Positions 7,566-36,307 of a stretch of 37,712 nucleotides of DNA are shown in pieces. The stretch lies in assembly GCA_028871525.1 (NCBI GenBank), contig JAGWMX010000017.1:1-37712 (forward strand), given 5' to 3'. The notes under the pieces are model-generated. The model was not told where the DNA came from, did no database searches, and saw only the letters and a program-made list of their open reading frames with translations. The position numbers were made by a program, and so were the translations under genes. The stretch is from Gammaproteobacteria bacterium (lineage in GTDB: Bacteria > Pseudomonadota > Gammaproteobacteria > Nevskiales > Nevskiaceae). Each line of letters opens with the position of its first letter. Within the stretch, counting starts at the first letter, position 1.

Positions 7566-7572
7566 ACGGCGC

Positions 7573-11544: not shown

Positions 11545-11571
11545 GTCCGGGCACGTCAAGCGGAAGGCAAC

Positions 11572-11828: not shown

Positions 11829-11921
11829 GCGTGGCTGCCCGCGCGTCTGCGGCAAGCTCGACCGCCGCCGCGCCAGCGTCCCGCCCCGCGCGCCGGCCGC
11901 GTCGCTGAGCCGCGACCGCGC

Positions 11922-12800: not shown

Positions 12801-12942
12801 AAGGAGTTCCGCTTCGCCCGAGCCGCTGGTTTTTCGTCAACCCGGCCCGGGGAATCGGCCGAATCCTTGCCGTGTATCCAGCATGCTCATCGGGATACGA
12901 TGCACGGACCCCGTCCACCACTCAAGCAAAGGGGTCACTCCG

Positions 12943-13329: not shown

Positions 13330-13445
13330 GGCGGCGCTTGCTGGTCACGCCGCCGTTCGCGATGCCCGGCCGTCGATGGGGCGATCCGGCCCGGGTTCGC
13401 CGTTGCGCCTCCGGCGCCTGTCCCGACTCGATCTCGCGCAGCCGG

Positions 13446-13474
13446 TTGTTCAAGCGCCTTAAGCGCTCAAACAA
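13446..13474. terminator. bidirectional terminator-like stem-loop
   Basis: TTGTT-ca-AGCGC-cttaa-GCGCT-ca-AACAA forms a 5+5 bp stem with a symmetrical 2x2 internal loop and a 5-base loop. Because the outer arms are TTGTT/AACAA it would give U-rich ends on either strand. It lies between two convergent genes, where a shared terminator is expected. Confidence 0.6.
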
Positions 13475-13492
13475 TCAGCGCCCCGCGATGAT

Positions 13493-13972: not shown

Positions 13973-14197
13973 GCTCACCCGTTCGTGCGTCCACCGCCCC
14001 GACTGTCGTCGCCGGATTCTAGCTCGCGGACCGATGCGGGGTCGGCAGCGGCTGGCTGCTGGCGGGCCGGGCGCTGCGGCGGCGTCCGGCAGACGCCGGC
14101 GCGCCCGCCGGCGTTGATCGTCGGGCGCGACTTTCGCTAAAGTCTGACACTGGCCGTCACCGGCGACGATGCGGGTCCGTCCACACCGGGAGCGCAG

Positions 14198-17916: not shown

Positions 17917-19124
17917 GGCGTTCGTCTCATAGTGGCAAGCACAACTGTCGGTTCGACTTGGAACTCCAATGGCGGGTTGCCGTTTTCGGCAAGCGCCTTC
18001 CGCGCATCGGCAATGCCGAACCCGAAGCGCTGAGCGAAACCAAGGGTTTTCATGACCTCGGCAAGCCGGGGATTTCGATAGTCGGCCTTGCCGGGTTGTC
18101 CGAAATTCTCGCGTGTTACCGACCCGAATGGCCCGCCCGGACTATGAATTTCGATGCGGTCATCGAACCAGTACACCCGAACGGGTGCATTTGTGCCTTC
18201 GTAAGTGCGATGTAAGATCGCATTGCGCGTCAACTGCTGGAGTGCAACCAGCGGATACGGACTGCGACGTGTCTCGGTTGTCGTGCCAGAGGTGAAATCC
18301 ACCGCCACCGTCAGGTGTGCTTTGAGCTTTTCGTCCAATCTCCTAATGATCAAATCAAGCGTTCCATCCAGTTCTTGCTCATCAACAACAGGATCACCCC
18401 ACTCGGTTCCGTTGATCCGCAGAAATTGAACATACGCACAGGGCAACCACGTTCGCGGTGTTTTGCCCAAGGTGAGTACCCCTGTGACGGTTGGCGTGAG
18501 GTCTTCCACGGAAACGATCATGCCTGTTGAGGCAAGCCGCTCCTCATAAGATCGGGCATTCGCAGTCAAAACGTCACCCGCGACTGCTCGCGGCAGGTAC
18601 TCTTGCTCGAACACCACGCGATTGAGTTCAGCCATCGGACATGCGACCACCGGATGGCTATCAAACGTCCTGTCTCGGTGACGCCGTTTTTCATTGAGAA
18701 TACGTTCATCTTGCGCAGTGGCGATATCGCGCCGCGGCCCAGTGCGAATCCAGATGCGGCCCCGATAGCGAACCGGTGGAGCGTCCGCAGGCTGCACCGC
18801 CACTACAGCCATTTCGGCGTTCTTGAGCCTGCGTTTCTCAACCGTGCACGATGGAGGGGGAACGATGTTCCCATTGCTGCGCAGGTCGGCAAGAGTGCGC
18901 AGAAGCTCATCCGTAATCGGCAAACCGGATGGTTCTCCATCATCTTTGGCGCCAACAAACAGCACGCCGGGTTTTTCGTGATTCGGCAAGTCGTTAGCGA
19001 AGGCACAAACAGCTTGGCCGCCCTTGTCTCGACAGTCGCCCGACCATGACTCCTTACGCTCTACCCGGTCAGACTCCAAGTCATCGAGAAGAGCTTCAAG
19101 CTCGATGTCGCTTAACGGTTTCAT
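17913..19124 (-). CDS. AlbA_2 (Schlafen-like) domain, putative transcriptional regulator or helper protein
   Basis: This 403-residue protein is of the COG2865 type. The N-terminal AlbA_2 domain (about 10-150) contains VERKESWSG and the loop CAFANDLPNHEKPGVLFVGA. The C-terminal part (about 270-400) is the ATPase-like HATPase_c_4 region with QQLTRNAILHRTYEG, VRVYWFDDRIEIHSPGGPFG and the YRNPRLAEVM and FGFGIADA motifs. Related proteins are annotated as regulators or RecG-related, and AlbA_2 domains occur in several anti-phage systems; a nucleic-acid role is likely. It overlaps the chimeric remnant upstream (ATGA at 19121-19124) and the ParA gene downstream. G+C is lower than in flanking genes. 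Confidence 0.88.
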   Translation of the reverse strand: MKPLSDIELEALLDDLESDRVERKESWSGDCRDKGGQAVCAFANDLPNHEKPGVLFVGAKDDGEPSGLPITDELLRTLADLRSNGNIVPPPSCTVEKRRLKNAEMAVVAVQPADAPPVRYRGRIWIRTGPRRDIATAQDERILNEKRRHRDRTFDSHPVVACPMAELNRVVFEQEYLPRAVAGDVLTANARSYEERLASTGMIVSVEDLTPTVTGVLTLGKTPRTWLPCAYVQFLRINGTEWGDPVVDEQELDGTLDLIIRRLDEKLKAHLTVAVDFTSGTTTETRRSPYPLVALQQLTRNAILHRTYEGTNAPVRVYWFDDRIEIHSPGGPFGSVTRENFGQPGKADYRNPRLAEVMKTLGFAQRFGFGIADARKALAENGNPPLEFQVEPTVVLATMRRTP

Positions 19125-19609
19125 AGATCACGATACTGGCGGAAACCAGCTACCAGTGTAGCGAACGTTCTTGCCGGGTCGCGCTCATGGCTTTGTTGGT
19201 CCACGTACACGAAACGGTAGGCTGGACCTCCAGCCGCCTGGCTTGCACTCGTCGCGTCCACACACCACTGGCGCAGCGCGCCGGATTTCAGCGAGGACAG
19301 GATCAGCTTGTTGTCGCCCCAGATCAGCTTGTTGGTCCAGCCGCGCGCCTGGCGGCCGCGGCTGTCGAACAGCTCCCCTTGCGCCTTCGTTTCGGCTCTG
19401 GGCTCGTCCACGTGCTCCAGCGTCTGGAACGGCAGCACGGTGGTGCAGACGTCGCGGGTCTTGCCGTTCCAGACGAGCTCGACCTCGCGCTTGTCCTCGA
19501 ACAGGATGAAGCGGTACTTCTCCGGCAGCGGCTTGCCCTGCTGAATCAGCGCGATCAGGTCGCGCTTCTCGGCGTCGGAGAGGTCGTAGGCGGGTGGAGT
19601 CTTGGGCAT
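19121..19609 (-). pseudogene. chimera: methyltransferase N-terminus fused to restriction-subunit C-terminus
   Basis: The frame encodes 162 residues. Residues 1 to about 112 (LSDAEKRDLIALIQQGKPLP through LIWGDNKLILSSLKSGALR) are the N-terminus of the same methyltransferase family as the remnant at 15977, ending before the catalytic motif. Residues about 113-162 (WCVDATSAS, FVYVDQQSHERD, FATLVAGFRQYRDL) match the last 50 residues of the restriction protein at 20345 (WCEDATAAS, FVYVDQQSFERH, FTGLVAAFRDFQP). This is what a deletion from inside a mod gene to near the end of a downstream res gene would leave. It is similar but not identical to the local res gene, so a second copy of the system is implied. 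The ATG overlaps the PIN toxin stop by one base and the stop overlaps the AlbA_2 start. Confidence 0.75.
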
Positions 19610-19992
19610 CAGACCAGCATCAGTCCGTGGTCGAGGAACGGTTCGAAATCCCTTCGGTTGAGCGTGATCAGCCTGGAGCCATGCAGGATCGCGGTTGCGG
19701 CGATGATGCAGTCCGGCAGCGAGCGCGAGCGGCGGCCGGTGCGGTTGAACAGCGCCGAGGCGCGTTCGGCGACGGCGCGGTCGACCGGAACGATGGCGCC
19801 GTCGAGCATGCGATCCCAGGTCCGCACCGAGTCCAGCGTGACGGGTCCGCACAAGAATTCGGCCCAGGCCATGCCCGACACCGCCAGCGACACCCCGGCG
19901 CCGCGCCAGCGGGCCAGGCGCACGCGCAGCGCGTGACCCGGCTCCAGCCCGAAGATCAGGGCGTTGGTGTCCAGATGGATCGGCGCGGCCAC
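19609..19992 (-). CDS. PIN-domain toxin, VapC-like
   Basis: This 127-residue PIN ribonuclease has the metal-binding acids in place: Asp8 in HLDTNALIFG, Glu45 in MAWAEFLCG, Asp94 in LPDCIIAATA and Asp115 in LNRRDFEPF. Such toxins cleave tRNA or rRNA and are held inactive by the partner antitoxin. The start is GTG 19992, 4 bases after the antitoxin stop; upstream in-frame codons would run inside the antitoxin gene. The stop overlaps the next ATG by one base (TGATG). Confidence 0.9.
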   Translation of the reverse strand: MAAPIHLDTNALIFGLEPGHALRVRLARWRGAGVSLAVSGMAWAEFLCGPVTLDSVRTWDRMLDGAIVPVDRAVAERASALFNRTGRRSRSLPDCIIAATAILHGSRLITLNRRDFEPFLDHGLMLV

Positions 19993-19996
19993 GGCG

Positions 19997-20305
19997 TCAA
20001 CGCCAAACGTCGCGGCTACGCTTGGCCCAGGCTGCAAAATCCACGCCCGCGGCGGCCATCGCATCGCCGGCGGCGAACAGCGCTTCGAGCGCGGGATCGA
20101 GTCGGGTCCGCGCAGAGCCTTTTCCCTTGGACCCGGACCTGGCTGCGGGCGACGGGCGCTGGCCCGCCACCGTCCCGGGTTCAGCGGCAGCCAGCCCGGC
20201 GGCGATCGCCTCCGTGACCACGTCCTTGAGGCGGCGGTCGCTGGAGGCGGCCCGCATCTTGAGCGCGCGCATCAGTTCGTCGGGTAACTCAAGCGTGGTT
20301 TTCAT
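19997..20305 (-). CDS. ribbon-helix-helix antitoxin of the PIN toxin
   Basis: This 102-residue protein begins MKTTLELPDELMRALKMRA, a ribbon-helix-helix DNA-binding start (a strand followed by two helices). The C-terminal part, ARTRLDPALEALFAAGDAMA and VDFAAWAKRSRDVWR, is the expected toxin-binding tail. ATG 20305 is preferred over ATG 20311 because GGAG lies 8 bases upstream of the former but only 2 upstream of the latter. It probably represses its own promoter through the palindrome at 20316-20335. Confidence 0.88.
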   Translation of the reverse strand: MKTTLELPDELMRALKMRAASSDRRLKDVVTEAIAAGLAAAEPGTVAGQRPSPAARSGSKGKGSARTRLDPALEALFAAGDAMAAAGVDFAAWAKRSRDVWR

Positions 20306-20315
20306 TGCCATATCT

Positions 20316-20335
20316 CCATAAAAATGTCTTTATGG
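20316..20335. promoter_or_regulatory. operator palindrome of the toxin-antitoxin pair
   Basis: CCATAAA-N6-TTTATGG is a perfect 7-bp inverted repeat in the 39-base gap between the restriction gene stop and the antitoxin ATG. It is AT-rich against the background and overlaps the ribosome-binding region. Autoregulation by an RHH antitoxin at such a site is the usual arrangement. Confidence 0.65.
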
Positions 20336-20344
20336 CACTATAGC

Positions 20345-23092
20345 TCACGGTTGGAAGTCCCGGAAGGCGGCCACGAGCCCGGTGAAGTTCGCTGGTGGGT
20401 GGCGCTCGAAGCTTTGCTGGTCCACGTACACAAAACAGTAAGTCGGCCCGCCTTCGACGATGCTGGCGGCGGTGGCGTCCTCGCACCAGTGCGCCAGGCG
20501 TTTCATCTTCTGCGGCAGGTCCAGCTCCTGCCGGCCCTTGGTCTCGACGATCCAGATGATCCCGCCGGCGGTCTTGACGATGAAGTCCGGTACGTAGTTG
20601 GACAGCTCGCCGTTGGCTTTGACGTAGTCGATCTTGAAGCCGACCGCCAGGTAGTTCTTGGCGAAGCTGGCCACGTCTGGCGCATCCTCCAGAAATTTGG
20701 CAAAGGCCAGCTCGAAGCCGCCGGCGCCGGCCTCGCCGACGATGCGGTTGAACACCGATTTCTTCACCGGCAGGTAAGGCCGCGCTTCGGTGCGGAACGG
20801 GCGCGTGTCGCGCAGGCGGATCCGATCTTCGATGCGGGTACTGCCGGAGTCCTGCACGGTGAGCGCGTTGATGGCCTGCTTGAAGCCATCAAAGAGCACT
20901 TTTCCGGGTGCCGCCTCCGACAGGTTGCGCAGCACCACCGGATCGTCCAGATCGACCGGCGCGCCCTCGAACAGGTGTTCGCGCATGAAGTCGCGCACCT
21001 TCGGATAGAGCAGGTCGTAGCCGCCGACCAGACGCAGTTCTTTGAGCAGTTGCCGGGCAAAGAAGCCGACCACGCTGCGCCAGTCGCCGGGACCGGCGCC
21101 GTCGAGGTGGATCGTGTGGTGCGCTTGTCCATCGAGCATGGTCTTGAACACGATCTCGCGGGTTTGTTCCGGCGTGAATGCCTGCAGCGGCAGTCGCGGG
21201 TTGCCGAAACCGGCGGGATCGAGCGCGTCGAGGTCCTTGTACTCACGCTGGTAGCGGCGCGCGAGTCTGGGAATGGCGATATCGAGTGCGTCGAGATCCT
21301 TGCCGGAGTCCGCACCGTCGACTTCGACCGTCACCGAATCCTTGCGCGGCGCGCCGCCGCCCATCGGCCGGTATTCGAGATCCACGCCTTCGGCCTTGAT
21401 CGACTCGACGAACTCCATGAACGCCGGCGTGCCCATCACCGAGACGGTTTCCGGCGTCTCCGAGCCGCCGCTCGCATCCGCGGTTGCGAGGTCCAGACCG
21501 CGATACATCCGCCGCAGGCCGCGGCCGAGCGTCTGCTCGGGCAGGATGTTGCTCCTGGCGTTGTAGGCGCGCAGGCCGCAGATCACGGTGACGTTCTTCA
21601 CGTCCCAGCCTTCCTTGAGCACCAGCACCGAGACGATGGCCTTGTACCGCGAGGCCCGGCCGTCGATGGCGTTGGCCTGTTCGCGCAGCCGCTCAAGCTC
21701 GTCCTTGCTCTTGCCGGAGGCCGCTTCGGAAATCTCACCGTTGGCCTTGGTGTGAATCACCAGCACGTTGCCCTCCAGTTCGGGGGCGATCTTTTCCAGA
21801 TGCGTGCCGGCCTCGTCGCAGTTACGGGTGTCGTCCACCATGACGAACAGCACCGCCTTCTTGCCGAGCTTTTCGTGCTCGGCGTAGCTCTTGCGCCACT
21901 CCTCCACGCCCAGGCGCAGATAGTCGTCGTAGCGCTCCGAGAAGATGGCGCTCTTATGCTCGGTCAGGCGCGCGCGGCTGCCGGCGTCCGGCAGCACCGG
22001 GTGTTTGACCACGTTCTGGGCGATGGCCTCCACCAGCGGGTAGTCGCTGACGGTCTGCACGAAGATGGCGCCGTTGTTGTGGCGCGGCGTGGCGGTGACG
22101 TCGATCTGCAGCGCCAGCCGCGTGTCCTTCTGCAACATGCGGTGGTGGATGTCCTGGATCGAGCCGAACCAGGCCATGCGCGGATCGTGGACGTGGTGCG
22201 CCTCGTCGTTGAACACCGCCAGCTCGTCGATCTCGCGCACGATCTCGCCGAGATCGGTGCGGCTGTCGGTGGTCTTGCCGACGGGCTTCGGTCCGAAAGG
22301 GCTCAAGAAATAGTCGCGCAGATCGTCGTCGTCCAGCGACGGTTGCGGCACGTCCGACAGATAGACGCGGTGGATGTTGGTCAGGAACAGATTGCCGGTC
22401 GGGCGCACGATGTGCACGTCGTCCTGCAGGTGCGGGGTGAGCTGGAAGTCGTCGCGCCAGTTCTGACCCGCATGGCCGTTGTCGGGCAGCATCGGATCGT
22501 TGAAGAAGATTTTCAACCCGTCGAAGTCGGCGCGCAGGCGATCGAGCACGATGATGTTTGGCGCGATCAGCAGCATGTTGCGCGCCAGGGCCGAACCCGC
22601 TTCATATAGTTTGTGGAAGTAACACCAGGCGACCAGCAACGACAGCACCTTGGTCTTGCCGGAACCCGTGGCCATCTTCAGCACGTAGCGCGGCCAGTCC
22701 TCATCGAACATGTTCGCGGAGACGACGCCCGAGGCATCGAAGCGCATCAGCTCGTGCTTGTCACGCGCCTGCCGGACATCGTAAAGCCAGATCACCGTTT
22801 CCACCGCCTCGCGCTGTGCGTAGTAGTAGCGGAACGGTGAGCGTGTGCCGTCCGCCTGCTCGACCGCGTGCTCGGTTTCGAACCACCAGTTCAGCAGCGC
22901 GCGCGAGGTATCGGACGCGCCGGCATAGCCGTTCGCGCGCCAGCTTGTGACCTCACGGCGGATGCTCGCCACCAGCGGCGGCAGCAGTTTTTCGTAAGCA
23001 GTCTCGCGCAGTGTCTCGTCGGCCGGGAACCAGCGCGCGTCCGGCGGCAGCGGCGCATACGGGGAGCGTGGGAAATCGGGGTGCAGGGCCAT
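20345..23092 (-). CDS. type III-like restriction enzyme, SF2 helicase-endonuclease subunit
   Basis: This 915-residue protein combines an SF2 translocase with a nuclease. Motif I is ATGSGKT (141-147), motif II DEAH (296-299), motif III TATPR (about 333-337), and motif VI is in PEQTLGRGLRRMYRG. A PD-(D/E)xK nuclease signature follows near the C-terminus: VPDFIV (Asp836) then WIVETKG (Glu850, Lys852). It resembles the DEAD-helicase restriction proteins encoded with the methyltransferase family seen here as remnants. The frame is complete with all motifs, so it looks functional, yet no intact methyltransferase is in the window. ATG 23092 starts the conserved MALHPDFPRSPYAPLPP; no strong ribosome-binding site. 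The antitoxin gene follows 39 bases later. Confidence 0.9.
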   Translation of the reverse strand: MALHPDFPRSPYAPLPPDARWFPADETLRETAYEKLLPPLVASIRREVTSWRANGYAGASDTSRALLNWWFETEHAVEQADGTRSPFRYYYAQREAVETVIWLYDVRQARDKHELMRFDASGVVSANMFDEDWPRYVLKMATGSGKTKVLSLLVAWCYFHKLYEAGSALARNMLLIAPNIIVLDRLRADFDGLKIFFNDPMLPDNGHAGQNWRDDFQLTPHLQDDVHIVRPTGNLFLTNIHRVYLSDVPQPSLDDDDLRDYFLSPFGPKPVGKTTDSRTDLGEIVREIDELAVFNDEAHHVHDPRMAWFGSIQDIHHRMLQKDTRLALQIDVTATPRHNNGAIFVQTVSDYPLVEAIAQNVVKHPVLPDAGSRARLTEHKSAIFSERYDDYLRLGVEEWRKSYAEHEKLGKKAVLFVMVDDTRNCDEAGTHLEKIAPELEGNVLVIHTKANGEISEAASGKSKDELERLREQANAIDGRASRYKAIVSVLVLKEGWDVKNVTVICGLRAYNARSNILPEQTLGRGLRRMYRGLDLATADASGGSETPETVSVMGTPAFMEFVESIKAEGVDLEYRPMGGGAPRKDSVTVEVDGADSGKDLDALDIAIPRLARRYQREYKDLDALDPAGFGNPRLPLQAFTPEQTREIVFKTMLDGQAHHTIHLDGAGPGDWRSVVGFFARQLLKELRLVGGYDLLYPKVRDFMREHLFEGAPVDLDDPVVLRNLSEAAPGKVLFDGFKQAINALTVQDSGSTRIEDRIRLRDTRPFRTEARPYLPVKKSVFNRIVGEAGAGGFELAFAKFLEDAPDVASFAKNYLAVGFKIDYVKANGELSNYVPDFIVKTAGGIIWIVETKGRQELDLPQKMKRLAHWCEDATAASIVEGGPTYCFVYVDQQSFERHPPANFTGLVAAFRDFQP

Positions 23093-23159
23093 GCGGCCAT
23101 GATCGCCGCAAATCGCGCCGCCTGCCATCGGCGCCGCCCGAACACCCGCCGGCATTGCT

Positions 23160-23190
23160 CTGTGACCCAGGTCACCAACCTGGGTCACAG
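23160..23190. promoter_or_regulatory. perfect 13-bp inverted repeat between divergent genes
   Basis: CTGTGACCCAGGT, a 5-base spacer (23173-23177) and the exact reverse complement ACCTGGGTCACAG form a 31-base palindrome, 67 bases before the restriction gene start and 111 before the multicopper oxidase. Its left half contains TGTGA-N6-TCAC, close to the Crp consensus TGTGA-N6-TCACA. Since both flanking genes start away from it, an operator is more likely than a terminator. Confidence 0.6.
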
Positions 23191-23301
23191 ACGGCGGCTG
23201 CCGCCCACGGTTTCAATACACCCACGTAACGTCACTGCAAGGCCGCCGAGGTCGCCGCAGCGGACGCTCACTACTTCGCAGAGATTATCGAGGGGATTCG
23301 C

Positions 23302-25143
23302 ATGAAAAGACGAGACGCGATCAAGTTCGGTCTGGCCTTCGCGGGCACCGGGGCTGCATCCAGGGTGGCTGTCGCGGACGTTCCCCAGAGCGGGCTGGTG
23401 TTCCCGCAGACGTTCCGGCCCAGCATCGTCACATCGCCGAGCCCGCCGGTGACGCCGTTCACGGTGCCGTTGTTCGTGATGCCGGTCGCGCAGCCGGTGA
23501 CGCAGGCGCAACTGGAGGCGCAGGGCGGGCCGATCGATCCGCTGGCGCACCAGCGCTACGCCGAATTCCTGCCGAAGAAGCTCTACGTCCAGCGCATCAG
23601 CGAGTTCCCGTGGGTGTATCACACCGATGCGCCGTATGGCAGCGGGTCTTATGCCTGGGGGTTCAACGGCATCACGCCGGGCGAGACGTTCCACGCTTAC
23701 TACGGCGAGCCGGTGCTGGTGCGGCGCATCAATGCGCTGCCGCCGGTGGGCAGCGCCAACGTCAACTGGGCGCTGCCGTCGGTCACCATCCACCGGCACA
23801 ACGGCCATCACGCCTCGGAGAGCGACGGCATCCCGCAGGACTTCTTCGATCCGGGCCAGTTCTGGGATTACCACTACCCGATGTACCCGGCCGGCGGCGA
23901 CCAGAAGGAGATCATGAGCACGTTGTGGTACCACGACCATCGTCTCGATTTCACCGCCACCAACGTCTACGCCGGCCTGTCCGGCTTCTACCTGCACTTC
24001 GACGCGTTCGACTCGAACAACGAGAACGACCCCAGCAAAGAGGCGTCGCGCCTGCCGAGCGGCAAGTACGACGTGCCGCTGATCCTGCACGACATCCAGT
24101 TCGATCAGCAGGGCCAGGTGATCTTCGACTTCGGCAACCCCGCGGCGACGATGGGCAACCCGGATAATTTCAACCCCAACTCGCGCAACGCCCAGTTCGG
24201 CGAACAGGGAACCGACACGATCGAAACCTGGCGGTTCCAGGAGCAATGGAACAACTCGGTGGCGCCGCAGCACACCACCTTCGGCATGATCGGCGACCGC
24301 TTCACGGTCAACCGCATCATCCAGCCGTTTTTCCGGGTCGAGCGGCGCAAGTACCGCTTCCGCATTCTCAACGGCGGCCCGTCGCGGCTCTACAACCTGT
24401 TCCTGAGAGCCGAGAACAACCTCGGCGGCAGCACCACCTCGCGCGAGAAATTCATCGTGATCTCGACCGACGGCAACCTGCTGCCGGAGCCGCTGGTCAA
24501 GGAAAATCTCGAGATCTGGGTGGCGCAGCGGCACGACGTCATCGTCGATTTTTCCAACTTCGCCGCCGGCGATCACGTTTTTCTGGTCAACACCCTGGCG
24601 ATGCGCGAAGACGGCGCCGGTCCCAACGGCCGCGATCTGGATCCGGGCGACCAGATCATGCGCTTCGACGTGGTCGATCGCACCGGACCGGATCACAGCC
24701 GCATCCCCGACGAACTGCGGGCGCTGCCGAAGATCGATCTGCGCGAAGTACGCCGCGAGCGCACCTTCGTCTTCGACTACGACAACGGCCTGTTCACGGT
24801 CAACGGCCGCTTGATGGACCCGAACCGGGTGGACGCCGCCATCGAACAGGGCTCGGCCGAGATCTGGACGCTGCGCAACGAGGGCAACACCTGGGTGCAC
24901 CCGATCCACACGCACTTCGAGGAGTTCCAGATTCTGGAAGTCAACGGCAAGCCGCCGGGCAAAGACGACGTGATCCGCTCGCGCAAGGACGTGGTCTCGC
25001 TGGGGCCGGGCATGGAAGTCAAGTTCTTCGGCCGCTGGCGCGACTTCTTCGGCAAGTACGTCATGCACTGCCACAACGTCGTGCACGAGGACCACGCCAT
25101 GATGATCCGCTGGGACATCGTGCCGCCGGGGCAGGGCGATTAA
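23302..25143 (+). CDS. Tat-exported multicopper oxidase
   Basis: This 613-residue three-cupredoxin oxidase resembles the CotA/bilirubin oxidase group. All copper motifs are present: IHRHNGHH (His164, His166), WYHDHR (His211, His213), HPIHTH (His533, His536, His538) and MHCHNVVHEDHAMM (His589, Cys590, His591, His595, with an axial Met at about 600). The enzyme would oxidise a phenolic, metal or other donor and reduce oxygen to water in the periplasm. The N-terminus MKRRDAIKFGLAFAGTG is a twin-arginine signal, expected for a folded copper protein. A ribosome-binding site (GAGGGG) precedes ATG 23302. First gene of a five-gene cluster with SCO proteins and a cytochrome fusion. The substrate is unknown. 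Confidence 0.95.
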   Translation: MKRRDAIKFGLAFAGTGAASRVAVADVPQSGLVFPQTFRPSIVTSPSPPVTPFTVPLFVMPVAQPVTQAQLEAQGGPIDPLAHQRYAEFLPKKLYVQRISEFPWVYHTDAPYGSGSYAWGFNGITPGETFHAYYGEPVLVRRINALPPVGSANVNWALPSVTIHRHNGHHASESDGIPQDFFDPGQFWDYHYPMYPAGGDQKEIMSTLWYHDHRLDFTATNVYAGLSGFYLHFDAFDSNNENDPSKEASRLPSGKYDVPLILHDIQFDQQGQVIFDFGNPAATMGNPDNFNPNSRNAQFGEQGTDTIETWRFQEQWNNSVAPQHTTFGMIGDRFTVNRIIQPFFRVERRKYRFRILNGGPSRLYNLFLRAENNLGGSTTSREKFIVISTDGNLLPEPLVKENLEIWVAQRHDVIVDFSNFAAGDHVFLVNTLAMREDGAGPNGRDLDPGDQIMRFDVVDRTGPDHSRIPDELRALPKIDLREVRRERTFVFDYDNGLFTVNGRLMDPNRVDAAIEQGSAEIWTLRNEGNTWVHPIHTHFEEFQILEVNGKPPGKDDVIRSRKDVVSLGPGMEVKFFGRWRDFFGKYVMHCHNVVHEDHAMMIRWDIVPPGQGD

Positions 25144-25200
25144 GGCGCCGTCACCCCTTCGCTGATCGGATTCAAAACGCATCGAATCGAGGAGCAGGTT

Positions 25201-25917
25201 ATGAAGCAACGACGCGAATTACTCAAAATAATGCCGGTGGCGGCGCTGGGACTGACCCCGCTGGGGTCGGCGGTGGGCGCGCTGTCGCGCCCTGCGCCCG
25301 GCAGCGACACGGCTGCCGCAGCCCCGGAGTTCGACCCGAGAAAGCAGCGCCGCATTCCCAACGTGCCGGGCGTGGCGCATACCGGTCAGAGCTTCAATTT
25401 TTACCGCGACCTGGTCAAGGACAAGGTGGTCCTGATCAACTTCATGTCGATCGCCGGCGAGGCCGGCTATCCGGTGACGGCGCGCATGACCGAAGTGGCA
25501 CGGCGACTCGGTGACAAACTGGGCCGCGAGGTGTTCATGGTCTCGGTCACGCGCGACCCGGTGAGCGACACGCCGGAACGGCTGGCGGCCTTCGCCGCGC
25601 AGCACGGCGACTTCAAAGGTTGGATTTTCGCCAACCTGGCGCCGGAAGGCACCGCCGCGCTGGCTCACCGCGTCTATCACCCCCAGGACCATAGCGGCGC
25701 TCCTGCCTACCACCATCGCCGCACCGCCGACGTCGTGTTCTACGGCAACGGCGGCGTCGGCTTGTGGAGCACCTTCCCGGTGGACATCCGTCCGGACGAC
25801 GCCGTCCGGCGCGTCGCCTGGATGATGCCGGGCAAGCCGGCGGACGGTGCGCTGCAGCGGGGCGGACCGCGCCGACTGAACAGCGCCGGCCTGACCTCGG
25901 ACAACCGCATCGCCTGA
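25201..25917 (+). CDS. SCO1/SenC-like protein lacking the copper-binding cysteines
   Basis: This 238-residue thioredoxin-fold protein is related to SCO: VVLINFMSIAGEAGYP (77-91), VFMVSVTRDPVSDTPERLAAFA (111-132) and the late AYHHRRTADVVFYG match the SCO scaffold. The CxxxC of SCO is replaced by Gly86 and Tyr90, and I see no cysteine anywhere in the protein. The conserved His (171/172) remains. It therefore cannot bind copper in the usual way. The N-terminus MKQRRELLKIMPVAALGL has an RRxLLK Tat-like signal. ATG 25201 follows GAGGAGCAGG. It may be a partner of the oxidase rather than a copper donor; a canonical SCO is two genes downstream. Confidence 0.85.
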   Translation: MKQRRELLKIMPVAALGLTPLGSAVGALSRPAPGSDTAAAAPEFDPRKQRRIPNVPGVAHTGQSFNFYRDLVKDKVVLINFMSIAGEAGYPVTARMTEVARRLGDKLGREVFMVSVTRDPVSDTPERLAAFAAQHGDFKGWIFANLAPEGTAALAHRVYHPQDHSGAPAYHHRRTADVVFYGNGGVGLWSTFPVDIRPDDAVRRVAWMMPGKPADGALQRGGPRRLNSAGLTSDNRIA

Positions 25918-25971
25918 TCCGCACGTGCCCGGTACGACTCATTTCACGAATGCGACAAGTGGAGCATGACC

Positions 25972-27756
25972 ATGCGACATCAAGATCTTGAAGGCGTTTT
26001 CGCCATTATCCTGTCGGCGGCGGCCCTGCTCGGCCCGCCGGCGGCACAGGCGGCATCGTGCGCGCCGATGCAGCCGCTGCCGGCGCCGGGCTCGTGGTCG
26101 GTCGTCACCAACGGAGATACGACGACCATCGACACCGCGCCGTCGTTTTTCCCGCCGGGCGATTCCTTCGGTCCCAATCCGACCAATCTGCTGCCGACGG
26201 TCTACGAAGATTCCTGCGATGCCGGCGGCAATCCGATCCCCAACACGCTGCCGTCGACGCCGGAGCATCCGTACAACCTGCATCCCGATCCGGTGGTGAC
26301 ACCGCTACCGAACAAACTCTCGCCGACCAACGATCTGGCAGCGATCATCAAGGCACTGCATGGCGGCAAAGTCAGTCGAAGCCAGATCCAGTTCGCCATC
26401 GACATCCTCGAAGGCAACCCGGTCAACCGTCTCTACAGCGGCTTTCCGGTGCTGCACTACAACGGGCCGCTGAAGGGCAAGACGGTGACGCCGACTCTGG
26501 ACGCCAACGGCAACGTCGTCGGCGGGACCGTCAACATTCACATGATCTATTACGACTCGCACATCGAATCCGACACCTCCTATGTCGATCCCACCGCCGT
26601 CAACGACGTGCCGTGGACCATCCATTACACCGTCGACGTGCTCGACCGCGGTTCCGACGATTTCGCCGGCTACATCATGTATTTCAACGCCAAGCTCGGT
26701 ACCGCCAACGGCGGCAAACCCAACGTCGGTCTGGACGACAGCTTCTTCCCGATGTCGGTCGGCCAGGATTCGGAGCGCGGCCAGCGCTACCAGTTCGACA
26801 TGAAGATGGCCCCGGCCGCATATTGGAATCTGACCTACCACTGGGGTTGGCGCATTCATCCGCCGCGGGTCCAGGTGACGGAGAATTTCAAGGTTCCGAT
26901 CAACGGCAACCCGCGCAATTTCTCGGAGTTCCAGGCGTTCTGCCCGACTCACGCGCCCAACGCCACCGGCGACTGCCCGGAATTGCGCACCGACCCGGCC
27001 TTCAGGACCGCGGCGATCAACATGATCGGCGACATCGCGCCGGCCAAGCGCATGTGGAACGACTTCCGCGCCATCCAGGCCGGGGCCGGCGGTTCGACGC
27101 TCAAGAGCCTGATCGCGGATCTGGATTCGGCCTTCGACGACTGGCAGCACCGCACGCGACTGCCGAAGGGCGTGCCCGAGGATCCCAACTACGACGAGAC
27201 GCTGTTGTTCGTCAACAACACGATCTACGGCCACGTCACCGGCTTCACCCGCGACATGCAGATGGAGGTGTTCAAGTACACCGGCCGCGGCAGCCAGATC
27301 AAAGTCAAGCTGTTCAACGGCGATTACTACAACCACGCCTACGTACTGGTGGATTTCGGCGGCATCCGCGGCTGGGAAAACACCTTCCAGAACACGCTTC
27401 CCCTCGGCGGACAGGGCCCGCTGTTCACCTTCGGCCGCAATCACTGGTGGGTCAACACTGCCAGCGGCGCGCTGCCGATCCCGGTGGCCACGCGGCCGCC
27501 CACGTCGTCCGGTACGGTCCTCGACTTCAAGAGCATGAAGGGCACCGATGACCCGCGCACGCCGCTGTTCAACCGGATTGACGCCCGCAGGACCGCCGAC
27601 ATGCACACGCGACTGACCACAGCCGATCCGACTTTCGGCGAAACACTCGGCGCGCATGACGTGATCATCAATTTCCACTACGACCCAAGCCCGCGACTGC
27701 GCATGTACCAGTTCGACGCGCTGCATCACGACGAGGCGATCTGGTCGCCGCACTGA
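25972..27756 (+). CDS. large exported protein of unknown family in the copper-oxidase cluster
   Basis: This 594-residue protein has a signal peptide (MRHQDLEGVFAIILSAAALLGPPAAQA, cleavage probably before ASC). The mature part has no domain I recognise. It is rich in aromatic residues and histidines in strand-like contexts: VNIHMIYYDSHIESDTSY, VPWTIHYTVDVLDRG, WNLTYHWGWRIHPP, IYGHVTGFTRDMQMEVFKYT, NHWWVNT and FDALHHDEAIWSPH at the C-terminus. Three cysteines lie in the mature protein (AASCAP, SCDAG, and FCPTHAPNATGDCPE adds two more). It may be a metal-binding enzyme or a scaffold for the oxidase. ATG 25972 is preferred over 25966 because GGAG lies 7 bases before it. The gaps to its neighbours (54 and 93 bases) suit one operon. 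Confidence 0.85.
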   Translation: MRHQDLEGVFAIILSAAALLGPPAAQAASCAPMQPLPAPGSWSVVTNGDTTTIDTAPSFFPPGDSFGPNPTNLLPTVYEDSCDAGGNPIPNTLPSTPEHPYNLHPDPVVTPLPNKLSPTNDLAAIIKALHGGKVSRSQIQFAIDILEGNPVNRLYSGFPVLHYNGPLKGKTVTPTLDANGNVVGGTVNIHMIYYDSHIESDTSYVDPTAVNDVPWTIHYTVDVLDRGSDDFAGYIMYFNAKLGTANGGKPNVGLDDSFFPMSVGQDSERGQRYQFDMKMAPAAYWNLTYHWGWRIHPPRVQVTENFKVPINGNPRNFSEFQAFCPTHAPNATGDCPELRTDPAFRTAAINMIGDIAPAKRMWNDFRAIQAGAGGSTLKSLIADLDSAFDDWQHRTRLPKGVPEDPNYDETLLFVNNTIYGHVTGFTRDMQMEVFKYTGRGSQIKVKLFNGDYYNHAYVLVDFGGIRGWENTFQNTLPLGGQGPLFTFGRNHWWVNTASGALPIPVATRPPTSSGTVLDFKSMKGTDDPRTPLFNRIDARRTADMHTRLTTADPTFGETLGAHDVIINFHYDPSPRLRMYQFDALHHDEAIWSPH

Positions 27757-27849
27757 GCCACGGCAGAGGTACGCGCGTGGCGATCAGCGGGACAAATCCG
27801 TCGGTCGCCGCGCGCAGTTCTAGGCGTCAGCGGGAGAAAGGCAACGAAG

Positions 27850-28590
27850 ATGTCTATGTCTACAGCCACGTCGCACCGCTTGTCCGTTCTTAACCCGGCG
27901 CAAAGGCTTGCAACCACGCTGGGGTTTGCAGTCATGCTGGCATTCGCCACCCGCTCCGGGCCGGCGTTTTCGGCCGGCCACGACGGCATGGGGGCCATGG
28001 CGCGTCCGCACCATCACGATCCGGGTGGGGAGATGGCCGGCATGAGCGACATGAGCGGCACCGCCGCCGCGACGAAATACACCGCAGCGCGGGCCAACTA
28101 CACCGTGCCCGCCGTGACGTTGACGGACGCCCACGGCCGCCCGGTCCGGCTGGCGCAGCTGCTATCGCAGCCGCGCCCGGTGCTGGTACAGTTCATTTTC
28201 ACCAGCTGCACCACGATCTGCCCGTTGTTGAGCACGACGTTCTCCCAGGCGCAGGCCGAGCTGGGGCGGATGCACGGCGATTACCAGTTGATCTCCATTT
28301 CCATCGACCCCGAGTACGACACGCCGGAACGCCTTGCAGCCTATGCCAAGCGCTACAACGCCGGCGCCCACTGGATGTTCCTGACCGGGCAGGCGGGGGA
28401 TGTCCGCAGCGTCATGACAGCCTTCGATGCGCTGTATCAAGGCAGCAACAAGATGTATCACCGACCGCTGTTTTACCTGCGAGCCAGACCGGACACCCCG
28501 TGGCTGCGAATCGAAGGGTTCATGCAGACCGCCGACCTGCTGAGGGAGTATCACGGCGTCCTCGGCGCCGCCGGGCTTGCCGTTCGCTGA
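27850..28590 (+). CDS. SCO family copper chaperone
   Basis: This 246-residue SCO1/SenC protein is exported by an uncleaved or late-cleaved N-terminal helix (LATTLGFAVMLAFATRSGPAF). A Met/His-rich segment follows (GHDGMGAMARPHHHDPGGEM, then GMSDMSG), typical for loose copper binding. The copper site is intact: FTSCTTICP with Cys120 and Cys124, and His204 in KMYHRPLFYL. SCO proteins deliver copper to CuA or other copper enzymes or keep their thiols reduced; here the multicopper oxidase or the unknown protein may be the client. A GGAGAAAGG site precedes ATG 27850. The next gene starts 8 bases after its stop. Confidence 0.93.
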   Translation: MSMSTATSHRLSVLNPAQRLATTLGFAVMLAFATRSGPAFSAGHDGMGAMARPHHHDPGGEMAGMSDMSGTAAATKYTAARANYTVPAVTLTDAHGRPVRLAQLLSQPRPVLVQFIFTSCTTICPLLSTTFSQAQAELGRMHGDYQLISISIDPEYDTPERLAAYAKRYNAGAHWMFLTGQAGDVRSVMTAFDALYQGSNKMYHRPLFYLRARPDTPWLRIEGFMQTADLLREYHGVLGAAGLAVR

Positions 28591-28598
28591 GCCGCTGG

Positions 28599-30428
28599 GT
28601 GCCGAAGCTCAGCGCTTTCATCCGCAGCGCCGCGCTAGCTGCGGTGCTGGCCGGCCTGGCGAACCCAGCGGCAGCCGGCGATATTTCAAGCGTTGCGGTG
28701 CCTGCCATCCATGGCACAACGCCAGTGGCTTCAATCCACCCCCGGCCCAGCCAGTCCGTGACCGGGCGTTCGGAACCGCCGCGACCGGTGGTCGCCAAGC
28801 GCGGCCCCTCACCCGCCGGCGACAGCGCCGCCGGCAAACGGCTCTATTGGCACGGCGCGACGGCCTCCGGCGCGCCGTTGCAAGCGGCCATCGCCGGCGA
28901 TGCCGCCGTCGCCGGCACGCAGTTCGGCTGCGTGAATTGCCACCGCCCCAGCGGCTTCGGTTCCAGCGAGGGCGGGAAATACGTCCCGCCGATCACCGGG
29001 CCGATCCTGTTTTCGCCGCGGCAACTCAACCGCAACCGGATCTACACCAAGCTGTTCGAGGAGGCCCAGCCGGCAGGGTTTGCCGCCGACGTGCGGATGC
29101 CGCGCATGCGGCCGGCCTACACCGATCAGACCCTGGCCGACGCACTGCGCAAAGGCGTCGATCCGGCCGGCCGCAAGCTCGATGCGCAGATGCCGCGTTA
29201 CGCGCTGAGCGATCGAGACGCCGCCAACCTGATTGCGTATCTGAAAACCCTGTCGGCGGCTGCCGATCCCGGCGTCGATGCCGCGGTCATCCATTTCGCC
29301 ACGGTGGTCAGCGACGGCACCGATCCGGCCGAGCGCGCGGCGGTCGTCAGCACGATCACCGCGTTTTTCGATTGGATGAACCGCGCCACCCACGGCTATC
29401 AGAGCCGGCCGGGATTCTCTCCCTACCACATGTCCGAACTCGCCAGCGCCTTCCGGCACTGGCAGCTGCACGTGTGGGAACTGCACGGACCGCCCGCAAC
29501 CTGGCCGCAGCAGATTCAGCGGCAATACGACGCGCAACCGGTTTTCGCCGTGATCAGCGGACTGGTGCACGGACCGTGGCGCCCGCTCGCACAGTTCTGC
29601 GACGCGAAACATATGCCGTGCGTGTTTCCCAACACGGAGCTTCCCCGCACCACGAACACGGATTACGCCTACTCCCTCTATTTTTCGCGCGGCCTGACGC
29701 TCGAAGGCGAGGTTTTGGCGCGGTATCTCGGCCGCCGACAGCCGCAAGCGGATCGCATCGCGCTGGTGCATTCCACCGATCCCTACGGCACGACGCCGGC
29801 CCGCGCATTCGAGCGCGCGCTCAAGACCGAGCAAGCGGACGCACGCATCCGCGAATTCGCATTCTCGGACCAAACTGAGCTGAACGCGGCGGTTCGCGAA
29901 CTCGCATCCGCCGCCGGGAACTTCGATGCGTTGGTTCTGTTGCCCGGCGAGCGCGTGAACGCGGCGTTGACGGCGTTGGGCGAGTGGCGACCTGGAATCA
30001 AGGTCATCGGTCTGCCATCCGACGCACTGACGTCGGTGCAGCCGGGAAAGCTGGGCACGCTGGCGGGCAGCCTGCTGTTCGCCTACCCGTACGAGCTGCC
30101 GTCGGCCTACCATCCGCGATCGTTCCGGGTGCGCCAGTGGATGCACGCGCAACACCTGGACATCGCCTATCCGAGGCTGCAATTTCAGACCTATTACGCG
30201 CTGACGATGGCCGAATTCGCGCTCGACCAGATACTCGACGACTTCTTTCGGGATTATTTCATCGAGGCGATCGAGCACGAGGCCGAAAACAACCTCGACA
30301 TCGGCACGCACCCGACGCTGGCCCTGGGGCCGGGGCAACGGTTCGCCTCCAAAGGCGCCTACATCGTGCGTATCGACGCCGCCGCACCGGGCGGCATCCG
30401 CGCGTTGAGCGACTGGATTGTCCCTTGA
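28599..30428 (+). CDS. cytochrome c fused to a type 1 periplasmic ligand-binding domain
   Basis: This 609-residue exported protein has a signal peptide (VPKLSAFIRSAALAAVLAGLANPAAAG), a linker, and a c-type cytochrome domain with haem site CVNCH (111-115) and Met198 in DAQMPRY as the likely sixth ligand. From about 225 to the end it resembles the Leu/Ile/Val-binding-protein fold used by ABC receptors: QPVFAVISGLVHG, CVFPNTELPR, RIALVHSTDPYGTTPARAFE, FDALVLLPGERVNAALTALG. Such a fusion could couple ligand binding to electron transfer. GTG 28599 is the first good start after the SCO stop; the exact start is uncertain. Last gene of the cluster, ending 105 bases before the convergent Crp/Fnr gene. 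No ABC permease is nearby. Confidence 0.88.
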   Translation: MPKLSAFIRSAALAAVLAGLANPAAAGDISSVAVPAIHGTTPVASIHPRPSQSVTGRSEPPRPVVAKRGPSPAGDSAAGKRLYWHGATASGAPLQAAIAGDAAVAGTQFGCVNCHRPSGFGSSEGGKYVPPITGPILFSPRQLNRNRIYTKLFEEAQPAGFAADVRMPRMRPAYTDQTLADALRKGVDPAGRKLDAQMPRYALSDRDAANLIAYLKTLSAAADPGVDAAVIHFATVVSDGTDPAERAAVVSTITAFFDWMNRATHGYQSRPGFSPYHMSELASAFRHWQLHVWELHGPPATWPQQIQRQYDAQPVFAVISGLVHGPWRPLAQFCDAKHMPCVFPNTELPRTTNTDYAYSLYFSRGLTLEGEVLARYLGRRQPQADRIALVHSTDPYGTTPARAFERALKTEQADARIREFAFSDQTELNAAVRELASAAGNFDALVLLPGERVNAALTALGEWRPGIKVIGLPSDALTSVQPGKLGTLAGSLLFAYPYELPSAYHPRSFRVRQWMHAQHLDIAYPRLQFQTYYALTMAEFALDQILDDFFRDYFIEAIEHEAENNLDIGTHPTLALGPGQRFASKGAYIVRIDAAAPGGIRALSDWIVP

Positions 30429-30533: not shown

Positions 30534-31322
30534 TCAAAACATCGCCGCATCCACCGCCCAGCCGCCGCCGAGCCACAATCCGGTCACTGCCGCCACCAGA
30601 AAAGCAGTCAGGTTACCGATAAGCCGTCCGATCGACGCACCGGGTCCGTCCGCCTGCCGCTCGAGCAGCCTGACCTGCCCGCGCTTGAGCTCGATGTGAC
30701 CCTGCCGGCGCAAATTCTCCAGCAGACGGCTGACCACCTCGCGCGTGGTGCCCAGTTCGTCGGCCACCTGCTGATGCGTCAGTTTCAGAGTGTCGGAAAC
30801 CATTTGCTGCGCCAGCCGGCGCAGATGGTGCACCAGCCTCACGTCGAGACGCCGGAAGCCCACCTCGGCGACCAGCTCCAACATCTCCACGAAAGTGCTG
30901 GACATGCGCGCCAGCAGATACCGGTTGAAGCTTGCCGAGCCGGCCAACAGGCGCTCGAACTGCTCGGCGGGGATGAACAGGACGGCGGTATCCTCTTCCA
31001 CGAGGCCTTGCGCCACCCAGTTGTCGACAGCCAGCAGCCTGCTGGTGGTCAGCAGGCAGGGCTGCCCCGGCCAGACCCGGTACAGGCAGATCTCGCGTCC
31101 GTCTTCCGCGGTCGTATACACGCGGACCCGGCCGCTGAGCTGAATCACGAAACTGTCGCTGGGAACCTGACGCGCTGTCAGCCTCATGCCGGCGGGAAAT
31201 CGCAACACCCGGGAAGCCGCCAGGGCTTCGTCCCAGGCCTGGCCGGAAATATCGGCGAGGCCGGAAACTGTCTTCACCCAGGCTTTGATCGGAACATTCG
31301 CAACCGGCGCTGCGCCATGCAT
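30534..31322 (-). CDS. Crp/Fnr-family regulator with C-terminal membrane-like segment
   Basis: This 262-residue protein has a cyclic-nucleotide-binding-type sensor (about 35-130; PSDSFVIQLSGRVRVYTTAEDGREICLYRVWPGQPC), a long dimerisation helix, and a winged helix-turn-helix at about 181-202 (LTHQQVADELGTTREVVSRLLENL). The N-terminal cysteines of Fnr are absent (only Cys79 and Cys89), so an oxygen-sensing cluster is unlikely. After the winged helix there is an unusual tail, residues 228-262, with a hydrophobic stretch GNLTAFLVAAVTGLWLGGGW that could enter the membrane and resembles half of a DUF2892 domain. ATG 31322 follows GAGGTG. It may control the adjacent copper cluster. Confidence 0.9.
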   Translation of the reverse strand: MHGAAPVANVPIKAWVKTVSGLADISGQAWDEALAASRVLRFPAGMRLTARQVPSDSFVIQLSGRVRVYTTAEDGREICLYRVWPGQPCLLTTSRLLAVDNWVAQGLVEEDTAVLFIPAEQFERLLAGSASFNRYLLARMSSTFVEMLELVAEVGFRRLDVRLVHHLRRLAQQMVSDTLKLTHQQVADELGTTREVVSRLLENLRRQGHIELKRGQVRLLERQADGPGASIGRLIGNLTAFLVAAVTGLWLGGGWAVDAAMF

Positions 31323-33754: not shown

Positions 33755-36307
33755 TCATCGCCCACCGGATTGTTCTATGCAGGCGTGCGAATTGTTGGCG
33801 CACTCGCGCTCGATATCCGACAGCGCCGTTCGAATACTCGTCCTCAGAACGTCTCGCGTGCCCACCTTTTCCGCGAATTCGAGCGCGTCCCGAAAGCTTT
33901 CCAGAGCATGCCCCAAATCGCCCTGTTGCCGATACGCCAGCCCCAGGTAGTAGGTGATCGCCGCATAGTACTGATCCTCGCGCCCAAAACTCGCCACCTG
34001 GCGGCGCTGCAAATCCTTGAGAATGGCGACCGCTTCGGGTAAGCGCCCTTGCCGCAGGCGCAATTTCCCGAGGTCGTACAACAACGGCCTCGTATATTTC
34101 AAGTTGTCACCGACCCAGGCGCGCATATCCTTCAGCGCCGCGGTGAGCTCGGTGTCCGCTTCATCGTAGCGGCCCAGCTCGAGCGACACGTCAGCGAGCG
34201 TCTGGCGCGCCGCCGCCGTGCTCGAATGCCGTGGACCGAAGGTCCGCAGATGGAAAGCGACCACTTCGCGCAGCAGCGGCTCGGCTTCCCCGTAACGGTG
34301 CAGCGTGATCAGGATCGAACCCAAACGCCAACGGATTTCGTCCACCAGCGGGTGGTCGCGGACGGGCGCCCGCATGGCGTCGGCGAGCACGCCGCGCAGC
34401 TCGCCGGCGACCCGCGCGTACTGCTCGGCCGTGCTCCACATCCAGTATCGGGCCCAGGCCAGCTTCTGACGGGCGTCCAGCACTCTGGAGTCCAGCGGAT
34501 CCAGCAGTTTCTGGCGATCGACCAAAACTTCCTGCCACAACCTGGCTGCATCCTGCGGCCGGCCAAGATCCAGCAGGGTGTCAGCCAAAAGGCCCAACGC
34601 GGTAGAGGTCGGCTCCCCTGCCCGTCCGTACAGGCGCTGGTACAGAGCGACGGCTTTCTGCAATTGTGTTTCAGCCTGCTCATTCAACCCCAACCCGGCA
34701 TACGACTTTCCAAGCGAAAGGTGGCCTTCCGCCGCGGCCTGCGGCTGGTCCCTGAAGCGCCGGTCCACCGTTTTGGCGGCGCGCTCCAGCAGCGCCTCGA
34801 GCGTGAGATCCTTGGTAGGACCGGCCTCGGGATCGCCGCTCGACAACAGATCCTGGTTGAGGAACTCGCTGACGGCCGCGGTGGTCGCCTCGGACGCCAA
34901 CGCCTCGTTGCGCGCACGGCGGGCGTCGACGTAGAGCGCCACGCTGAGGCCCAGGCCGACCGCCAGCGTGGCCAGTGCGGTACGCATCCAGGTGCGGCGC
35001 GCGCGCATGCGCTCCAGCGCCTGCCGGGTCCGCTCCGCTTGGAGCTTCGACACGCGCTCCTGCGCGCGCTGGCTGCGGCGTTCGTCCAGCGTTCTCAAAC
35101 GCTGCGCCAAACGCGTGGCGTCGGCGAGTCGATGCGCGGGGTTTCCCGCCGCCGCGGCGGCGATGTCCTCGCACAGGATTTCGTCCTCCACATCCCGCTC
35201 CCAGTCCGGCGACAGCGGACGCCTGAGATCCGCCACCACCAACTGGTAGAGCATCACACCGACGGCATAGACATCCGCCTGCACGGTGAACGGCTGGCCG
35301 GCGATCACCTCCGGCGCGAGATAACTCAGGGTGCCGCTGGTGGTGCCGGCGTCCACCGCCTGGGTCAGGCCCATGCGGGTGATGCCCAGCGCATCAAGGC
35401 GCGCGGTGTCCAACACGCCGCCGCTGCCGAAGTCGGCCAGCTTGACCGCGGGCACGCCGTCCCGGCGTGTATCCATCAGGACATTGGCGGGCTTCAAGTC
35501 CTTGTGCAGGACACCGACCGAATGCGCGGCGAACAGCGCCTCGGCAATGCGCGCCGCGATCTCGATCCGCGCCGGCAGGGCGACGTTGGCGAGCCCGCCC
35601 TGCGCGTCCGCCCACTGCAGCAGACTGCCGCCGGCGGTGTATTCGGTCTCGATGAAAAACGGCGGCCGCTCGAGATTCCAGTCGAGCACTCGCGCGAACG
35701 CCGCGGCGCGCTCGCCGAGGCTGTCGTGCAGCAGGCGTGATAGCGTGATCTCACGCTTGAGCGCGTTCAGCGCGGTGCCGTCGAAGGCGAACTTGTAGAC
35801 CCGCTCCTCGCCGGTCTTGTCGTGGCGCGACAGCCAGGCCTCGCCGTGGCCGCCGGCGCCCAGGCGCTCCACCAGGCTCCACAAGGGCCGCAGCGCAGGG
35901 TGGTCGCCAGCCTTGAAATCGAAGTGGGGCGCCGTGACGGCGGCGGCGCTCTCGACCCGGACCGGCGCATCCAGGCGGTAGCCGTAACCGTGGACCGTTT
36001 TGATCAGCGAACGGCCGTCCTCGCCCAGCGCCTCGCGCAGCTTGCCGACGCACTTGGTGAGGACAGTTTCGGTGAGGATGCGGCCCGGCCAGACGCCGTC
36101 GAGCAGCTCGTCCTTGGTCACCACCTCACCGGCGTGGTGCAGCAGGAACAGCAGGACTTCCAGCGTCTTGCGCTCCAGTTTCACCGGGCGGTCGTGGACG
36201 TGGAGCGTCAGGGCGCGCTCGTCCATGCAGGCCGGCCCGAACAACCAGCGCCGGGCCTGCAATCCGGCATTGCCCGCCTGCCCGGCTCCTTGCAAGGTGT
36301 CCGCCAT
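33755..36307 (-). CDS. winged-helix / Ser-Thr kinase / TPR fusion protein
   Basis: This 850-residue protein has an unusual domain order. Residues about 22-113 form a PhoB/CadC-type winged helix (RKTLEVLLFLLHHAGEVVTK, VWPGRILTETVLTKCVGKLR, IKTVHGYGYRLD). Residues about 145-405 are a eukaryotic-type kinase: loop LGAGGHGEAWL (149-159), Lys172, HKDLKPANVLM (Asp270, Asn275), DFGSGG (Asp292) and APE (331-333). A single membrane helix (about 442-460) leads to TPR-like repeats (about 520-840), probably periplasmic. A membrane-tethered DNA-binding kinase could pass an external signal to both promoter and substrates. ATG 36307 lies in a repeat that recurs at the window end. No phosphatase is nearby. 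Confidence 0.9.
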   Translation of the reverse strand: MADTLQGAGQAGNAGLQARRWLFGPACMDERALTLHVHDRPVKLERKTLEVLLFLLHHAGEVVTKDELLDGVWPGRILTETVLTKCVGKLREALGEDGRSLIKTVHGYGYRLDAPVRVESAAAVTAPHFDFKAGDHPALRPLWSLVERLGAGGHGEAWLSRHDKTGEERVYKFAFDGTALNALKREITLSRLLHDSLGERAAAFARVLDWNLERPPFFIETEYTAGGSLLQWADAQGGLANVALPARIEIAARIAEALFAAHSVGVLHKDLKPANVLMDTRRDGVPAVKLADFGSGGVLDTARLDALGITRMGLTQAVDAGTTSGTLSYLAPEVIAGQPFTVQADVYAVGVMLYQLVVADLRRPLSPDWERDVEDEILCEDIAAAAAGNPAHRLADATRLAQRLRTLDERRSQRAQERVSKLQAERTRQALERMRARRTWMRTALATLAVGLGLSVALYVDARRARNEALASEATTAAVSEFLNQDLLSSGDPEAGPTKDLTLEALLERAAKTVDRRFRDQPQAAAEGHLSLGKSYAGLGLNEQAETQLQKAVALYQRLYGRAGEPTSTALGLLADTLLDLGRPQDAARLWQEVLVDRQKLLDPLDSRVLDARQKLAWARYWMWSTAEQYARVAGELRGVLADAMRAPVRDHPLVDEIRWRLGSILITLHRYGEAEPLLREVVAFHLRTFGPRHSSTAAARQTLADVSLELGRYDEADTELTAALKDMRAWVGDNLKYTRPLLYDLGKLRLRQGRLPEAVAILKDLQRRQVASFGREDQYYAAITYYLGLAYRQQGDLGHALESFRDALEFAEKVGTRDVLRTSIRTALSDIERECANNSHACIEQSGGR

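Follow-up and report, generated by a model that had tools for sequence, protein, structure and literature searches.

A Probable iox Cluster

The five genes at positions 23302-30428 of the window (the whole analyzed stretch of 37,712 nucleotides, contig JAGWMX010000017.1 of assembly GCA_028871525.1) very probably form an iodide oxidase (iox) cluster with the order ioxA-B-C-D-E, horizontally acquired by a gammaproteobacterium, in which IoxA and IoxC oxidize iodide. That this organism uses iodide is what we infer, and the same applies to the functions assigned to IoxB, IoxD and IoxE. In some marine and brine bacteria, the iox copper oxidase converts iodide to iodine, and iodide oxidizers are known from the genus Roseovarius. 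The system itself is thus already known. What is new here is chiefly the host, along with certain accessory details, namely a second and apparently separately acquired copy, a patchy spread, the predicted fold of IoxE, relatives that comprise A-B-C only, a weak hint for IoxC and fusion proteins in Burkholderiaceae.

All five open frames lie on the plus strand and run in the same direction. The ioxA-like gene (23302..25143) encodes a multicopper oxidase of 613 amino acids with a twin-arginine N-terminus and the Pfam domains Cu-oxidase_2 and Cu-oxidase_3. It is followed by an ioxB-like pseudo-SCO gene (25201..25917; 238 amino acids), whose product is a thioredoxin-fold relative of SCO according to a weak Pfam SCO1-SenC match and an alignment, and by the ioxC-like gene (25966..27756; 596 amino acids, or 594 from the next methionine), which is without a family by Pfam, NCBIfam and PDB sequence searches. 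The ioxD-like gene (27850..28590; 246 amino acids) encodes a canonical SCO, as judged from Pfam SCO1-SenC and the alignment, and the ioxE-like gene (28599..30428; 609 amino acids) a fusion of a cytochrome c with a type-1 periplasmic binding protein, based on Pfam and an AlphaFold model. The intergenic gaps are 57, 48, 93 and 8 bp if ioxE starts at the GTG at 28599, just 3' of the ioxD stop codon (28588-28590), which is the most likely start. The longest ioxE frame begins at the GTG at 28500, within ioxD, and is an unlikely start. Export of the five proteins was judged by eye from their N-termini, with twin arginines in A and B and Sec-like signals in C, D and E. An initial annotation of this DNA had proposed five same-strand genes with short gaps for an oxidase, a cysteine-less SCO, a protein without a family, an SCO and a cytochrome/binding-protein fusion; the frames, Pfam and the alignment bear out both the arrangement and all five assignments.

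Synteny and Published iox Systems

A scan with IoxC as query, confirmed with tblastn, yielded 17 loci in named genomes. Roseovarius contributes most of them, alongside Methylobacter sp. KS41 (74% identical), an Acidobacteria assembly and unclassified alpha- and gammaproteobacteria. In all 17 named loci, ioxA and a cysteine-less ioxB are found directly upstream of ioxC, and in 16 of them ioxD and ioxE are found directly downstream; the exception (L012) ends at a contig end. The order ioxA-B-C-D-E is consequently kept in each of the 16 untruncated loci, those of Roseovarius included, and the strong co-occurrence of the five that the initial annotation had put forward as a check is indeed found. 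Since this arrangement of five genes is shared by further phyla and classes, the gene set goes beyond chance.

The iox cluster of Iodidimonas is described as comprising the multicopper oxidase gene ioxA and the SCO1/SenC genes ioxB, ioxD and ioxF, while the function of IoxC and IoxE was called unclear in the same 2022 review (PMC9415286). Iodide oxidase purified from Iodidimonas sp. Q-1 and from Roseovarius sp. A-2 contains both IoxA and IoxC (PMC9415286; PMC5928188). Relatives of IoxA were reported from Gammaproteobacteria (PMC9415286; PMC5928188) and Nitrospirae (PMC9415286), and a similar oxidase of the terrestrial bacterium Rhodanobacter denitrificans is cited in a review (PMC10643221). 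The window cluster resembles the clusters of strains Q-1 and A-2 in its multicopper oxidase A, the SCO-family proteins B and D on both sides of C, the presence of C and E, its single strand and its tight spacing, and it shares the order A-B-C-D-E with Roseovarius genomes, ioxE following ioxD on the same strand as in the 16 untruncated named loci. This match to both the published iox set and the Roseovarius synteny is the reason to assign the window cluster to iox. The link to the Iodidimonas and strain A-2 clusters runs via the Roseovarius relatives and the published description, and the published Iodidimonas IoxE was matched by gene position. When Iodidimonas was sought among 385 genomes of the class of Roseovarius, the sole match was the Roseovarius centre itself.

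The window cluster differs from that of strains Q-1 and A-2 in its gammaproteobacterial host, in the presence of two divergent copies in one genome and in lacking IoxF and adjoining gsp genes. The loci retrieved, those of Roseovarius included, contain no further SCO gene that could represent ioxF, and no gsp genes were found among the window genes scanned, although such genes flank the iox cluster of Iodidimonas (PMC9415286). A type II secretion gene, gspG, is present elsewhere in the same genome, and one Roseovarius cluster (L010) is followed by a prepilin peptidase gene and gspG, J, K and L, resembling the Iodidimonas flank. We treated ioxF and the gsp flank as accessory rather than defining for iox membership, in the case of ioxF as the Roseovarius loci lack it too.

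Properties of the Individual Proteins

IoxA matches Cu-oxidase_2 (4.6e-16) and Cu-oxidase_3 (3.8e-7) in Pfam and bilirubin oxidase in a PDB search (E=7e-54). The latter alignment spans every copper motif, among them HCHNVVHEDHAMM, which contains the axial methionine. The four copper motifs are intact in 21 out of 21 IoxA sequences, and the window protein is 57-83% identical to the IoxA-like proteins of other iox loci. IoxA belongs to the same family of three-domain folds as bilirubin oxidase, CotA and CueO and has all of their copper motifs, the axial methionine among them. Its NCBIfam scores fall far short of the CueO and PhsA cut-offs, and its partner genes are different. IoxA-like oxidases with 39-41% identity also occur on Skermanella plasmids (L049 5695-8082 and L050 5929-8330), where the genes that follow encode an SCO keeping a CxxxC-type motif and secreted proteins that do not evidently resemble IoxC.

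The two SCO relatives diverge in their metal ligands. IoxD matches Pfam SCO1-SenC at 1.5e-21, whereas IoxB does so at 6.6e-4, below the cut-off. In the alignment, the CxxxC motif and the distal ligand histidine are present in 11 out of 11 IoxD proteins and absent in 15 out of 15 IoxB proteins, in which an invariant glutamate adjoins the first lost cysteine. That IoxB is cysteine-less in every relative checked is a new detail. Since the ligands are kept in IoxD and lost in IoxB, IoxD is predicted to load copper and IoxB to be a metal-free partner.

IoxC has no Pfam or NCBIfam match and a best PDB sequence match of only E=1.1, and membership of a known family was rejected on these grounds. The window protein is 42-74% identical to its homologue in every iox locus. 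Its AlphaFold model is of low confidence (pLDDT 61.5), with residues 106-310 weakly cupredoxin-like. Foldseek returned nothing below E 0.001 (nor below 0.03) for this model. In VIA, cupredoxin-fold proteins dominate the list at Z values of only 4-6.3, the best match for residues 106-310 of the low-confidence model being rusticyanin (Z 6.3, 3.4 A over 121 residues). These comparisons give a weak hint that IoxC may be cupredoxin-like.

IoxE carries the Pfam domains cytochrome c and Peripla_BP_6, with the heme motif CVNCH at about 28929-28943 and the binding-protein domain at about 29277-30425. The AlphaFold model of the C-terminal domain adopts a type-1 binding-protein fold (Foldseek E 1.8e-13; VIA Z 25.2 over 341 residues), which strongly supports a type-1 binding protein as the predicted second domain. 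In one Roseovarius assembly (L007 10609-12284), ioxE is split over two overlapping frames by a frameshift that is either real or an assembly error.

Fusions with the same two-domain architecture are found on megaplasmids of Cupriavidus and Paraburkholderia (33-35% identity to IoxE over 87%), and neither IoxA nor IoxC was found near them in the stretches read. In Paraburkholderia AP028202.1 (L051 662-15927) and Cupriavidus metallidurans CH34 (L047), the fusion gene is located downstream of a gene for a secreted protein of 2723 amino acids. In the Paraburkholderia locus, two multicopper-oxidase-domain proteins adjoin the fusion and gsp genes come next. In both genera the fusion belongs to an exported gene set unlike that of iox; in Paraburkholderia, the two oxidase-domain proteins are unrelated and are accompanied by the 2723-residue secreted protein and LolA-like proteins. 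Because the Burkholderiaceae fusions adjoin unrelated multicopper oxidases, they suggest an accessory role of IoxE-like proteins with exported copper oxidases; the context does not indicate the ligand. A more far-reaching and improbable idea is that exported multicopper oxidases in general make use of IoxE-type fusions as an accessory, whose binding domain would sense or hold the substrate or product of the oxidase and pass electrons to the respiratory chain.

Relatives Comprising A-B-C Only

Loci of three further genomes (L034 6024-16192, L035 5428-15076 and L036 1554-12524) carry a divergent trio with homologues of IoxA, of the cysteine-less IoxB and of IoxC, arranged as in the window but without IoxD and IoxE. 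Their A and C proteins are 45-47% and 36-37% identical to those of the window, respectively, and in the IoxA tree they constitute a separate, well-supported clade next to an A-B-C-D-E clade of 18 members. These modules are accompanied by CusB, a CusA-type RND pump and DsbA. The CusB/CusA-type exporter is encoded downstream of A-B-C in L034 and L035, and sequence similarity indicates the same for L036; a glutamine cyclotransferase occurs with two of the three modules, and DsbA-like proteins were confirmed in two. CRP-family genes lie beside A-B-C genes in L033, L034 (46% identical) and L036. Since these loci have the trio but lack D and E, the core of the system seems to be A-B-C, with D-E as an accessory part.

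The genome of L035 has three ammonia monooxygenase (AMO) copies and is therefore probably that of an ammonia oxidizer. Homologues of ioxA and ioxC were noted in Nitrosomonas in a 2025 paper, whose authors did not know whether the whole operon is present (PMC12335899). In the one AMO-positive genome encountered here, the operon is not whole but limited to A-B-C.

Second Copy, Distribution and Origin

The host rpoB is 72-76% identical to that of three gammaproteobacterial assemblies and 58-60% to that of Roseovarius. The spread of iox is rare and patchy: IoxC occurs in one out of 58 genomes of the host's family, i.e., in the host but not in the 57 others, and, in wider samples, in 5 out of 369 genomes of the class and 3 out of 398 of the phylum. 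A search for plasmid carriage of ioxC gave no match.

The same genome contains a second complete A-B-C-D-E cluster on another contig (C119; L020 7391-14592), with 59% identity to the window copy for A and 44% for C. The IoxA tree joins the window copy to Methylobacter KS41 (support 100/99) and the second copy to another genome, G219 (100/100), and the identities for A, C and E agree with both pairings. The window cluster has a GC content of 0.65 compared to 0.69 in bases 1-14000, and the second copy one of 0.629 compared to 0.687 in its flanks. Taken together, the tree grouping, the A, C and E identities and a GC content below that of the flanks point to two separate horizontal acquisitions of iox. 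On each of the two contigs, the genes flanking the cluster have homologues across the family, most of them 54-67% identical, and hence there is no obvious sign that either contig is foreign; a binning error is a residual possibility for C119.

Surroundings and Possible Regulation

A perfect 14-bp inverted repeat, TCTGTGACCCAGGT-CACCA-ACCTGGGTCACAGA, is located upstream of ioxA at 23159..23191 and is a candidate operator. It contains TGTGA-N6-TCACC, resembling CRP half-sites. The repeat was not found upstream of ioxA in 13 other loci checked, which makes an operator function speculative. Convergent with the cluster, a gene for a CRP/FNR-family protein (30534..31322, minus strand; Pfam cNMP_binding and HTH_Crp_2) possibly encodes a regulator of the cluster. 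In a scan for FNR boxes, weak matches exceeded those in shuffled sequences, but they are two-mismatch sites only and mostly lie inside genes; the single weak match near a gene start falls between ioxA and ioxB.

Directly upstream of the cluster, on the minus strand, a block of lower GC content (16912-23188; about 0.60 at 16-20 kb) encodes a ParA-like ATPase, a Schlafen/AlbA_2 protein, a PIN-domain toxin-like protein and a Res-type protein (type III restriction). It looks like a mobile or defense island. Further downstream, also on the minus strand, an 850-residue protein combines winged-helix DNA-binding and protein kinase domains with TPR repeats (33755-36307).

Proposed Mechanism and Alternative Explanations

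In the mechanism that we propose, the four-copper oxidase IoxA, together with IoxC, would oxidize iodide on the extracytoplasmic side and use the electrons to reduce O2 to water, with I2 or HOI as the product. IoxD would deliver copper to IoxA. IoxB may be an assembly or structural partner of IoxA and IoxC rather than a copper or thiol carrier, and IoxE either an accessory carrier of electrons or a partner that responds to a ligand.

There is an appreciable, though clearly smaller, chance that the same five genes serve another physiological substrate in this lineage, such as phenolics, Mn(II), Cu(I) or reduced sulfur. Purified IOX also oxidizes phenolic compounds and ABTS in vitro (ABTS, syringaldazine, 2,6-dimethoxyphenol and hydroquinone; PMC9415286), identity between the window IoxA and the Roseovarius proteins is only about 57-59%, and the location of the sister A-B-C modules beside a CusBA-like exporter suggests that this branch has some connection with copper. 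What argues for iodide is that the five partners, their order and the copper motifs are all kept, including IoxC, a component of the purified iodide oxidase.

A copper-tolerance operon with a CueO/CopA-like oxidase and copper chaperones is very unlikely. It would account for the combination of a multicopper oxidase with SCO and for the resemblance of IoxA to CueO and bilirubin oxidase in profiles and the PDB. IoxA scores only 137 bits against an NCBIfam cut-off of 525 for CueO and 19 against 479 for CopA, however, and the window cluster contains no copper exporter or CopB, CopC or CopD gene; this reading was rejected on these scores and missing genes. Moreover, we know of no place for IoxC and IoxE in CueO/CopA-type operons, which counts against it as well.

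Least probable of all is the proposal of the initial annotation, an unrelated and undescribed pathway of substrate binding and oxidation, which the lack of a known family for IoxC and the genuine cytochrome/binding-protein fusion in IoxE would favor but which we rejected, since the same set is already described as iox in Iodidimonas and Roseovarius (PMC9415286) and is found again, with its order unchanged, in Roseovarius and others. Its statement that no described system has this set is thereby contradicted, and the match to a characterized pathway that it named as grounds for refutation is found in iox. Its mechanistic outline (an exported copper oxidase, a small substrate, copper delivery by SCO and a cytochrome/ligand-binding fusion) was reasonable, but not as that of an undescribed system.

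Iodide oxidation governs the mobility of iodine, radioactive iodine-129 included, and yields a strong biocide. To our knowledge, few bacteria have been proven to oxidize iodide. Two complete iox clusters in a gammaproteobacterial genome, together with the relatives in Methylobacter sp. KS41 and one Acidobacteria assembly, add candidates to the iodide oxidizers. The predicted metal-free IoxB, the cytochrome/binding-protein IoxE and the apparent A-B-C core provide testable ideas on IoxB, IoxC and IoxE. If IoxE-type fusions were indeed to act as general accessories of exported multicopper oxidases, iodide oxidation would be energy-coupled or ligand-controlled and not merely a production of toxic iodine.
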